Source: Prevotella sp. (GTDB taxonomy: Bacteria > Bacteroidota > Bacteroidia > Bacteroidales > Bacteroidaceae). Taken from it: a stretch of 49,503 nucleotides of DNA. The stretch spans positions 1-49,503 of the forward strand of contig JAFZIY010000029.1 of the NCBI GenBank assembly GCA_017554105.1. The letters run 5' to 3'. Position 1 is the first letter of the stretch. Each line of letters opens with the position of its first letter. The notes under the pieces were generated by a model. The model did not search any database. It worked only from the letters and a program-made list of their open reading frames with translations, and was not told the DNA's origin. Of the stretch, positions 1,111 through 26,632 are shown piece after piece. The position numbers and the translations under genes are program-made.

Positions 1111-4100
1111 TTATTGCGATTTTGTTTGTTGGAACTTGATGATGAAGGAGTAGTGGTAGGGCTTGTTGCCGTCTATAGTGTACTGGGGTAGGGTGCGTTG
1201 TCCCCATGTGTCAATGCCGCCCACGCCATGAATATTCAGGTCGATGTTAAGATTGACAAACTGTCCACGCTGAATCTCGTATGGGTGTCCTGCTCCTTCA
1301 AGATTCTCCTCACCATAATCCCAAGCGCGGATGCAGAGAGGCTGACAGCCTTTTATGGTAAGTTCCCTCTGCTCATTAGCTATATGCAGGAAACGTACAT
1401 CACAGCGATTACCGTTATCCTGTGGATGGATATACTCCGTCTCGAACTCGCTTAGCGGCATCTTATAAAAGCCGATTAAAGCACTGCGCTTGCGGTCAGG
1501 GTAGTTCTCCCATGGTCCGCGACCGTAATACTTTATGTCTGTCATGTCGGCTGGCAGACGCATGCGCATTCCGAATTTGGGAATCAACGGTATATCTGTG
1601 GCAGTGGGCTTGTAGTCCATGTCCACCATAATCTCACCCTCATCGTTTAAGGAGTAAGTAAGTGTGAGGTCTGCACCTACAGGCAGTGACATCTCAGCAA
1701 TCACTTTCACGCATGTCTCGCCATTCTCAGTGCGCAGCGATTTCACGGTGCGTTTCTCGGCGGCATCCTTCCAAACGGCTAAACGCTCGGCAAAGTGGGC
1801 AGCGTGCTGGTTGTCGTTCTCTGGTTTCCAGAAGTAAGGCTCCAATGGGGCTTTAAGCATTTCCTGTCCGTCAATTATCCAACTACACAATGCTCCTGTC
1901 TTATCTATGGCAACTGTGCCTTGTTTGGTGTGAACTTGCAGTCCGCTATCGGTTTTCTGCACCTCTGCTGGTTTGCCTTCCAATGCTGTTGGGTAGTTCC
2001 ATTCCTGAAGCACAAACTGCTCGCGTGCCACCACAAATCCCTTCTTTGCCCAAGGCTTGTTCTCGCGGAGACTAGCCTCTATATTCCTCAACGTTTCTGA
2101 GCCATACACCAAATCGCTGCAACTGATGTCGTATTCTTCAGGATCGGTGAAACAGTCGTGATTGACGAGGCGATAGGTCTCTTCATCCCACTCGAAGGAC
2201 AGAGGTTGATAGACATGCTGCACTTCGTAGTAATGCGGATGAGGCTTGCGGTCGGGGTCGACGAGTCCGTTGATGCAGAAAGGACCATCGTTAGGCTGGT
2301 CACCGAAGTCGCCACCGTAAAGGAAGGCCCCCTCCAAACCTCCCCCCGCAGGGGAGGCTTTCTGACCACCCCATCCCTTCAAACCTCCCCCAGTGGGGGA
2401 GACTTTCTGACTTGCTTGAGACCCTGCTCCCCTCCCTGCGGGGGAGGGGTTGGGGGAGAGGCTTAGTCCCTGGTCCACCCAGTCCCAGATGGCGGCGCCA
2501 CAGATGCTGGAGTCTGCGTATATAACATCCCAGTATTCTTGTAAGTTGCCCACTGAGTTACCCATGGCGTGAGCATATTCACGCATCATGAATGGACGGT
2601 CGTTGACCTTGCGGGCTTCTTCAGCAAGTCTGGCTGGGGGCAGATAACCATCGTCGTAGATATCGCTCTGGCTGCGGTCAGTGTCACAGAAAGGCAGGGC
2701 GATGGTGTCGATGGCGACGACAGCGTCGCGCATAGCCTTCAGGTTCGGTCCGACTCCACCCTCGTTGCCGAGACTCCAGAAGATGACACATGGATGGTTC
2801 TTGTCACGTTGAACTAACGAAACGGCACGATCGACATGTGCATCCTTCCAGTCGGGATCCTCGCCCATCACCTTATTGGCGTAGCCGTAGCCATGACTCT
2901 CCTGATTCGCCTCGTCCATGACATAGATGCCCCAGCGGTCGCACAGTTCATAGAGGTATTCGCGGTCGGGATAATGCGAGGTGCGCAGGAAGTTGATATT
3001 CGCCTGCTTCATCAGCATGATGTCTTTTTCGTAGGTGGCATCATCCACGTAGCGGCCCGTTACAGGATGATGGTCGTGACGATTAACACCACGCAGTTTC
3101 ACGTTCTTGCCGTTGATTTTGAAGACCTCGCCGACACATTCCACTCTCTTCACGCCGAGGTAGTAGTCGAAGTGCTCGCCCCCCTCCATACCTCCTCCTT
3201 TTAGTTCGATGCTATATGGATAGAGGTTAGGCTTTTCTGCCGACCACAACTTGGGATTATTTATCTGGTACGTGAGTTGGATGTGCGTGGTATCACTCAC
3301 GGCAAGTTTTTTTATTTGTCCCTCAATAGTCTTTCCGTCGATATTAAGGGTCGCTTTCAAGTTCTTGGCTTTCTTCTGTCCAGTATTGCAGATGGCGATG
3401 TCGGCAGTGACCTCAGCCTTTGAAAAGTCGGCATTAGGAACCGCCTCCACCTTGTAATCGGCGATATGCACCAACGGGCGCACCCACAGTTGCACCTCGC
3501 GGAAAATACCTGAGAGTCGCCACATGTCCTGACACTCCAGATAACTGCCGTCGCTCCAGCGATAGACCTCTACTGCAAGTTTGTTCCTTCCTTTACGCAT
3601 GTATTTGGTAACATCAAACTCTGCCGGCGACATCGAGTTCTGGCTATAACCCACTTTCTGTCCGTTTATCCACACATAGAATGCAGAATGCACGCCGCCG
3701 AAATGAAGTATCAGGTTCTTGCCGAGCATTTCCTTCTTGACATCGATGTATGTCACATACGAACCAACGGGGTTGCGGTGGTCGTAAGCATACCAGTCCT
3801 TATTGGGTTCACCTGTGACGCTTGGACGGTCGCGGTGGAAAGGATACTGCATGTTCACATATATCGGTTTGCCATAGCCCTGCAACTGCCAGTTGCCGGG
3901 CACCCTTATCATGTCCCACTGGCTTACATCGTAGTCCTCACGGTAGAAATCTACCGGACAACAGTCAGGGCCTTTCGACCAATGGAATAGCCACTCGCCA
4001 TCGAGCGACACTATCTCTTTACACTCCTTCCATTTCGATGGCAGTTGTAGCGTTGCGTGATAAGGAAGTTTGTTAATGCCCAGCACGGCAGGGTTCTCCC

Positions 4101-4185
4101 AGTCATGCCTTTGTGCTGCTGCCATCATTGTGGTCCATACCACAATTGAAACCATTAATAATCGTCGCATTTTAAAATATATCAT
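1111..4185 (-). CDS. LacZ-type beta-galactosidase, GH2 family
   Basis: A retaining exo-glycosidase, probably releasing terminal beta-galactose (or another beta-sugar) from oligosaccharides in the periplasm. It has an N-terminal signal sequence ending about Ala-Gln at residue 25, the GH2 sugar-binding, Ig-like and TIM-barrel domains, and a C-terminal LacZ small-chain-like domain. The acid/base Glu475 lies in WSLGNEGG and the nucleophile Glu536 in [10 protein letters not shown]. At 1024 residues it is the usual LacZ length plus an insert: residues 575-619, between WDWVDQGL and FLYGGDFGD, are translated from three REP-like palindromes. The start at 4185 overlaps the upstream GH115 stop by 4 bp; an ATG at 4170 (MRRLL) is an equally plausible start. 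It is the last gene of the enzyme run. The family is clear; the exact substrate is not. Confidence 0.9.
2328..2463. repeat. Cluster of three REP-like palindromes inside the LacZ-type gene
   Basis: Two direct copies (2328-2366 and 2369-2411, both ending in CTTTCTGAC) are followed by one inverted copy (2424-2463). The reverse complement of 2427-2462 matches 11158-11193 in the GH127 gene at 34 of 36 positions. The block keeps the reading frame and encodes a Gly/Pro/Ser-rich loop with three SP(A/T)G motifs. Confidence 0.9.
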
Positions 4186-26453: not shown

Positions 26454-26504
26454 GATTGATATTTTTGGATTGTTATATGATTTGTTGTATATGTTTTAGT
26501 TTCC

Positions 26505-26632
26505 GACCCCACCCCAGCCCCTCCCCTGCAAGGGCGGGGAAACAGCAGAATGGGTGATGGATATTAGGTGTTGGGTGATGGACCTAACCTAACGACTCCC
26601 CGCCCCTGCAGGGGAGGGGTAGGGGTGGGGTC
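26505..26632. repeat. Inverted pair of REP-like elements (reductase 5' side)
   Basis: Arm 26505-26543 and arm 26594-26632 are inverted 39-bp copies with about five differences. The spacer holds two copies of TGGGTGATGGA. The pair starts about 50 bp before the reductase ATG, so the reductase gene is bracketed by such pairs on both sides. Confidence 0.93.

Follow-up and report, generated by a model that had tools for sequence, protein, structure and literature searches.

The TM_ECO and PIT triplex motifs are the closest described relatives of the elements treated here. As set out in the relevant passages of Holder et al. (2015, PMC4666352), these motifs run C-arm, loop, G-arm, 3-nucleotide loop and second G-arm, form inverted pairs from two linker types and were counted in 262 proteobacterial genomes; in Escherichia coli K-12, TM_ECO is described as always intergenic with no mobility functions nearby, and its triplex as demonstrated in vitro by nuclear magnetic resonance (the name PIT, from Hoyne and Maher, is given as cited there). 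Repeats of this anatomy occur in a 49,503-nucleotide stretch of Prevotella sp. DNA (hereafter the window: positions 1-49503 of contig C27, JAFZIY010000029.1, in a genome of 3.12 Mb and 32 contigs), where they lie in genes as well as between them and accompany a gene for DUF559, a nuclease-like domain. We think it probable that they are the terminal inverted repeats, the dimers resembling miniature inverted-repeat transposable elements (MITEs), and the solo remnants of a mobile unit whose sole gene is a DUF559 nuclease (PD-(D/E)XK, Vsr/YcjD-like). The repeats alone belong to a known class; for the linked repeat-DUF559 unit, in the open-licence literature (titles, abstract starts and passages, with preprints outside the search) no paper linked DUF559 to triplex-type repeats.

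Four comparisons place the system. With TM_ECO/PIT it shares the order of arms and loops, inverted pairing of two linker types and a copy number that is very uneven between relatives, and a repeat beside ycjD in K-12 fits the pattern published in PMC4666352; unlike TM_ECO/PIT, the copies described here are also found in frame in genes, are linked to DUF559 and fall into several subfamilies per genome, and their triplex is predicted from sequence. REP/BIME/REPIN elements with their RAYT gene (the REPtron) offer the same layout: repeats stand on both sides of a small gene for a nuclease or transposase, and inverted dimers are scattered in large numbers elsewhere. That layout recurs here, with 23 of 29 DUF559 loci of the genus flanked on both sides and 27 of 27 dimers sharing one polarity; the enzyme, however, is DUF559 and not a Y1/HUH transposase, and the Y1 genes of this genome have palindromes of other kinds. 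Rickettsia palindromic elements (RPE) and intragenic REPs, in the portions of PMC3733652 that describe them, are likewise palindromic repeats that lie in frame in numerous protein-coding genes, sometimes as dimers and sometimes at the N-terminus, but the CGTC repeats there (including RPE-4 and RPE-6) have no transposase-gene association, whereas here DUF559 as well as repeats is found in host frames. MITEs and their parent transposons combine a gene-bearing unit that has terminal inverted repeats with gene-less dimers; the same combination is seen here, but with no known transposase and no target duplication seen.

The repeats are abundant well beyond the window. An architecture-only rule (an 8-nucleotide C-arm, a loop of 1-6 nucleotides, a complementary G-arm, a linker of 1-4 nucleotides and a third arm mirroring the G-arm) found 129 copies in 504,873 bases of the genome, comprising the window and 40 stretches mostly picked around sites of a tail pattern, whereas first-order Markov shuffles gave none and the reversed sequence gave 5. 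Allowing up to three mismatches, the tail pattern itself occurred at 60 sites in the genome compared with 15 for its reversed form, and an exact pattern at 76 compared with 12. The 80 best GH127-related loci of relatives (1.40 Mb, from metagenome genomes titled Prevotella, Prevotellaceae, Bacteroidaceae or Bacteroidales, mostly ruminant) contributed 64 more architecture sites. The original prediction, which had described a family of REP-like palindromes at a series of places in the window and proposed scanning this and related genomes for more, was therefore sound in this respect: the elements are there and form one superfamily with many copies and REP/BIME-like dimers. Its further claim that the spread was recent held in part. 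Two of its nearly identical copies (at 2427 and 11156) do agree at 95% over 38 nucleotides, and some copies look recent; others are common to several species and decaying, among them one copy shared by three of the relatives' loci (L053, L060 and L095).

Several subfamilies with different arms coexist in the genome, all with the layout of C-arm, loop, G-arm, short linker and second G-rich arm that defines the TM/PIT intrastrand-triplex anatomy. The C-arm was paired in 114 of 124 matches; in these the third arm fitted better as a mirror of the G-arm in 63, better as a direct repeat in 31 and equally well in 20, and its mirror symmetry is only moderately supported; a one-strand prediction folds the dimer-type repeat as a C-arm with a tail. 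Pairing is common, with 56 of the 129 copies having an inverted partner within 250 bp. Wherever adjacent inverted copies were separated by less than 200 bp, a gap too short for DUF559, the minus copy preceded the plus copy (27 of 27 pairs). The single-contig genome G016 has eight such pairs at a spacing of 102-105 bp, again minus then plus, and another genome, G132, has nine pairs at 52-53 bp with the opposite polarity. An apparent one-strand bias of the copies in G016 was an artefact of listing order, the complete list having both strands. In the scanned stretches of the Prevotella genome, 49 unpaired copies opposed the local GC skew and 22 followed it (p 0.0018), a result from one of several uncorrected tests that we left unused. 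One of its DUF559-bearing units (L339) contains a motif that a strict regular expression finds in 5 of the 129 copies over a background of 0.06%, which is a hint only.

A search for open reading frames between oppositely oriented copies returned two genes of about 130 amino acids, and both encode DUF559 (PF04480). Five DUF559 genes are present in this genome, and 121 of 200 genomes of the genus have the domain. The gene in the window, absent from the original prediction, lies at 24991-25389 on the minus strand and adjoins an inverted dimer at 25.4 kb; the called GTG start and the dimer's first repeat overlap, and an in-frame ATG follows 9 codons on. Its product matches PF04480 with an E value of 3.4e-35 and has a solved relative, 3hrl ('Endonuclease-Like Protein', E 2e-20). 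Across 46 aligned DUF559 proteins the pattern DF.C.......E.DG..H, a conserved acidic core, is kept at 90% or more, and YcjD appears as a PD-(D/E)XK member in a listing from an older study (PMC1189080).

DUF559 genes are bracketed by the repeats in several phyla. Counting as flanking any triplex-type repeat within 500 bp of the gene, we found flanked DUF559 genes at 25 of 29 usable loci of the genus (30 retrieved; 23 flanked on both sides), at 21 of 25 usable loci from other families of Bacteroidota (29 retrieved; 16 on both sides) and at 10 of 15 loci from a plasmid collection (15 of 41 matching records, from Cyanobacteriota, Deinococcota, alpha- and gammaproteobacteria and one Streptomyces; 6 on both sides), where the unflanked genes were those of Pseudanabaena (L334), Shinella, Sphingobium, Streptomyces and Sinorhizobium. 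Random places were flanked far less often: 3.6% on any side and 0% on both in the relatives' loci, and 23% and 1.6% in the repeat-enriched stretches of the Prevotella genome itself. Repeat density was 2.07 per kb in the inner flanks of DUF559 and 0.31 in the outer ones (2.00 versus 0.20 in the Bacteroidota set), and the reversed-sequence control at the three sets of loci yielded 0, 1 and 2 sites where the true sequence yielded 78, 60 and 23. Bracketing was also seen with the strict pattern, independently of how loci were chosen, at 1 of 2 listed DUF559 places in G016 (gene at 269391-269705, repeats at 269242 minus and 269788 plus) and at 2 of 5 in G132. Within the Prevotella genome, four of the five genes have a flanking repeat.

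The 21 genus units that we measured span 456-682 bp from repeat to repeat, and the nearest flanking repeats run minus/plus in 21 of the 23 two-sided ones. The two repeats that enclose a gene are more alike than repeats taken from different units, with a distance of 0.087 within and 0.235 between units for the 23 of the genus and of 0.224 and 0.328 for the 16 of the phylum (permutation p 0.0001 in each set). E. coli K-12 also has a TM_ECO-pattern sequence, the sole one in the 15 kb examined, in the gap between fabI and ycjD, a gene annotated 'DUF559 domain-containing protein'.

The numbers of repeats and DUF559 genes are correlated across genomes. Among the 89 of the 200 genus genomes with completeness of at least 90% (contamination unfiltered), 20 or more repeats were found in 31 of 54 with DUF559 and in 2 of 35 without (p 3.3e-7, which like the other cross-genome p-values overstates independence because the genomes are related), and repeat number followed DUF559 number with a rank correlation of 0.68 and a partial correlation of 0.69 given genome size. 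The phylum sample, with the Prevotella genome itself removed, gave DUF559 in 10 of 11 genomes with at least 10 strict-pattern repeats and in 159 of 284 others (p 0.027).

Many of the copies reside in open frames. The 129 comprise 51 in called open reading frames (of which 35 stand 30 codons or more from either end), 10 at the edges of frames and 68 between genes; because 88% of the scanned sequence is coding, the repeats are nonetheless enriched per base outside genes. Relatives have 49 of 74 copies in open reading frames, a count that includes L124, a second copy of the LacZ locus of the window. Where coding sequence was open on both sides on one strand, the frame was kept across 36 of 40 copies (23 versus 3 in the Prevotella genome, 13 versus 1 in relatives), which bears out the frequent in-frame position noted in the original prediction. 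Left out of this tally were 147 copies lacking a coding signal on both sides, 3 whose two sides are coded on opposite strands and 3 close to the end of a locus. Hosts include Mfd, alanyl-tRNA synthetase (AlaRS), asparagine synthase (AsnB), SufB, aminopeptidase P and LacZ, and the copies in conserved genes occur in both orientations.

The LacZ-type GH2 beta-galactosidase gene (1111-4185, minus) is one of the hosts in the window. Its three copies are a triplex-type repeat in frame at 2326-2360 on the minus strand (GCCTCCCC-TGCGG-GGGGAGG-TTT-GGAGGGGGC), a second in-frame copy at 2363-2409 on the minus strand, which has diverged within that subfamily and falls under the threshold of the architecture scan, and a repeat at 2427-2464 on the plus strand (CTCCCCTCCC-loop-GGGGGAGGGG-TT-GGGGGAGAGGC), antisense in the gene and an inverted dimer with the first. 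Together they encode 42 residues (approximately 576-617) that are missing from the close homologues in four genomes (G013, G009, G018 and G022), whose matches end at query residue 574-575 and restart at 618-620. The loop is 61 residues long here; of 15 other loci, ten have a loop of 20-28 amino acids, two one of 40, and three, in which other repeats are present, one of 45-71. In the LacZ frame of another species (L064:8595) a triplex repeat stands at the same loop, in a shifted frame.

Copies also occupy other conserved loops. The copy in GH127 (11156-11193, minus, in frame; gene 10616-13024, minus) occupies a loop that in most of the 80 related loci is five residues long (GIHNE, AIRNE, GIKGE and similar); a structure prediction for this protein was poor (mean predicted local distance difference test score 58.8) and was left unused. 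AsnB reads AKMC-GLSPNPSPKGEESFV-IEKK where 27 of 29 relatives have a four-residue loop (PGST and similar), one of the two remaining relatives (L214) having a longer unrelated loop; at a different position, AsnB site 1, the copy is common to three species and decaying. AlaRS of two species has different GC-rich inserts in the same loop. Taken with the bracketing of DUF559 genes, these results suggest a previously unrecognised kind of mobile element whose repeats host proteins can accommodate. As separate observations on the same loops, tandem repeats of about 7 nucleotides (AATTGAGAATGG-type and CCATTAT-type) lie in frame in GH127 (L051, L054, L056, L069 and L120) and LacZ (L102 and L129), and the AlaRS loop of four loci (L194, L197, L206 and L037) contains, depending on the species, a triplex repeat, GC hairpins, ACTAGT units or AAAGACCTT units.

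DUF559 itself is found within host frames, flanked by repeats as the free genes are. At 19 of 54 loci the domain lies in an open frame of at least 250 amino acids, and Pfam scans of 18 of these frames (L319 was left out) identified as partners LeuRS (L305 and L308), MetH (L313), HsdM (L324), HsdR (L310, L312, L316 and L325), an ABC-F-like ATPase (L298), MazG (L287) and type ISP and other methylases (L303, L304 and, weakly, L306), as well as IspF (L288, L290, L292 and L302) and a SpoU methylase (L282) with DUF559 on the N-terminal side. In the LeuRS of L305, the alignment to the Thermus thermophilus enzyme breaks at query residues 300 and 461, and residues 301-460 fall between enzyme positions 236 and 240. 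The HsdR frame of L325 (175-3315) combines a GIY-YIG domain with DUF559, which gives one predicted protein two domains of nuclease type.

The loci display linkage of repeat and gene, a set geometry, correlation across genomes and residence in host frames; from these, movement of the units is inferred. The nuclease would recognise the repeat by its structure, a hairpin or triplex formed where DNA is single-stranded or extruded, and would cut the repeat or the target, whereupon repair would copy the unit in, in a manner resembling homing; a structure-guided cut followed by such copying seems to us the most likely route. Dimers without DUF559 would be moved in trans, and the low stop-codon content of the repeats together with selection would leave mainly in-frame copies.

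Several observations weigh against this account. The polarity of phylum units is mixed (8 minus/plus, 4 plus/minus and 4 same-strand among 16), one DUF559 locus of the Prevotella genome (L023) is plus/minus, another of its genes (L338) has no flanking repeat, and ycjD in K-12 has a repeat on one side only. Two genomes (G048 and G192) have at least 20 repeats and no DUF559 match, and eight have DUF559 and no strict-pattern repeat, one of which (G210) does have architecture-type repeats around its gene (L283). Repeat type did not clearly follow DUF559 relatedness in Mantel tests within the genus (r 0.11, p 0.16) or the phylum (r 0.15, p 0.058), the pooled set being the sole significant one (r 0.32, p 2e-4), and the case for co-evolution of the two is weak. 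At conserved loops some host residues seem replaced, not displaced, by the repeat, and in SufB the stretch encoded by the repeat does not exceed the loop length of certain relatives; in IspF and SpoU, DUF559 is fused upstream of the host domain, not inside it. No target site duplication was seen by eye at the AsnB, SufB, AlaRS or GH127 junctions, for which there was no close empty site for comparison, and no excision or insertion event was seen in the examined loci. Finally, the genus and phylum DUF559 loci were the best-scoring matches and not a random draw, kinship among the genomes was uncontrolled, and many of the sources are metagenome assemblies.

The alternative that survives best, which we nevertheless judge unlikely, is that the repeats are unstable triplex DNA spread by accidents of replication and repair, with DUF559 a host repair nuclease sitting among them or drawn to them. 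Passages of Holder et al. (2015, PMC4666352) tie triplex motifs to instability and report no mobility genes. In Caulobacter a DUF559 protein is described as acting in the context of DNA damage (PMC12907096), and the apparent replacement of host bases would fit. This view, however, fails to predict the two-sided, polarity-fixed bracketing of DUF559 (23 of 29), the matching of left and right repeats, or DUF559 inside the frames of LeuRS, MetH and HsdR.

A still less probable explanation is one in which DUF559 is a homing endonuclease gene (EDxHD/PD-(D/E)XK) that moves itself between alleles, and the repeats are target or protective sites that spread separately. A Thermosynechococcus DUF559 gene is assigned to the EDxHD homing family in a passage of PMC9403480, and, as with homing endonucleases and inteins, a nuclease domain sits in host proteins and the same host gene is used in several families: HsdR in several families, LeuRS and IspF in several genomes. 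The resemblance stops at the absence of any intein splicing (Hint) domain at E values up to 0.001 in the Pfam scans of the 18 DUF559-bearing frames, and at the terminal triplex-type repeats and dispersed dimers, which have no place in those systems; homing alone leaves dispersed non-allelic repeats and same-polarity DUF559-free dimers unexplained.

We regard as very improbable the possibility, raised in the original prediction, that the repeats are REP/BIME elements mobilised by a RAYT (Y1, TnpA_REP) transposase. They resemble REPs in size, in their palindromic arms and inverted dimers and in their abundance, and the search for a RAYT-like gene proposed there did find two Y1 genes in the genome (L043:4764-5384 and L042:4824-5566). 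Each, however, is bracketed by a palindrome family of its own (GCCCAGGGC-type and AGGGGCGAACCCC-type, with a few further copies in other stretches), which means that a repeat-Y1 linkage of this kind would be visible, and no triplex repeat lay within 500 bp of Y1 at any of 26 usable loci (31 fetched, 5 too short). Y1 (PF01797) matches are present in 111 of the 200 genus genomes, and the raw rank correlation of Y1 with repeat number (0.27, p 0.010) drops to a partial correlation of 0.18 (p 0.098) given genome size. At least 20 strict-pattern repeats were found in 19 of 45 genomes with Y1 versus 14 of 44 without (Fisher p 0.38, Mann-Whitney p 0.06); four genomes have at least 40 repeats and no Y1 match, and 12 have Y1 and no repeat. 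The mover proposed in the original prediction is accordingly disfavoured. No GTAG/CTAC-type tetranucleotide of the REP foot was noticed among the printed copies, of which no count was made. Least probable of all is that the repeats are selected functional RNA or DNA signals (terminators or G-quadruplex sites), for although they are enriched per base outside genes and their G-rich tails could form quadruplexes, copy number spans 0 to 280 across genomes of one genus, both orientations occur inside conserved genes and Rfam, at the gathering threshold, matches nothing in the window but a tRNA.

Returning to the mobile repeat-DUF559 unit, we see about an even chance that it represents a pan-bacterial class of mobile element, made of a single DUF559 nuclease between triplex-forming inverted repeats, with trans-mobilised dimers and solo repeats, and small and poor enough in stop codons for repeats and nuclease-bearing units to lodge in frame in essential proteins and last there as new loops or domains; if so, the TM/PIT repeats found in E. 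coli and elsewhere among bacteria would have their origin in it. Catalogues list triplex-type repeats from hundreds of genomes with no known origin, DUF559 is a domain of unknown function, and their linkage offers a candidate enzyme for the one and a candidate substrate for the other, together with a route by which bacterial proteins, including aminoacyl-tRNA synthetases, could gain in-frame loops or whole domains. E. coli K-12, with ycjD, is a ready laboratory model. Of 5426 E. coli genomes, 3362 have at least 80% of the ycjD region. Two strains lacking the gene (EcN_Sk and ZH193; L332, L351 and L352 region) have efflux pump and TetR genes between sapF and fabI, a block that corresponds to the eefRABCD locus described in a passage of PMC12817139, and the site gives no clean junction because this other gene block fills the place. 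One further candidate for a ycjD-less E. coli site, L353, was rejected as an unrelated repeat match.

In the window the architecture scan called 8 copies and missed the diverged LacZ copy at 2363-2409 and two further elements. One is a hairpin in GH95 at 19624-19655, whose membership is doubtful and which lacks a third strand; the other is a half copy at 1089-1105 on the plus strand, downstream of the LacZ-type gene, that consists of a single arm of the dimer-type hairpin. A triplex-type repeat at 15163-15199 on the plus strand lies at the N-terminus of a DUF3109 frame and may belong to a 5′ leader, because it begins about 8 codons past the called start. Where six copies in four open frames had been proposed, five in three frames (LacZ, GH127 and DUF3109) stand, the GH95 hairpin being the doubtful one. 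The dimer beside the DUF559 gene spans 25376-25507 (25385-25416 minus, 25467-25498 plus) and a second inverted dimer spans 26489-26648 (26508-26539 minus, 26598-26629 plus); the aldo/keto reductase gene between them (25500-26453, minus) is probably a bystander. Two tandem arrays complete the picture, one of 21-nucleotide units at 23626-23691 and one of 22-nucleotide units (TGAACAATCTTATTAACTTTGT) at 26742-26873.

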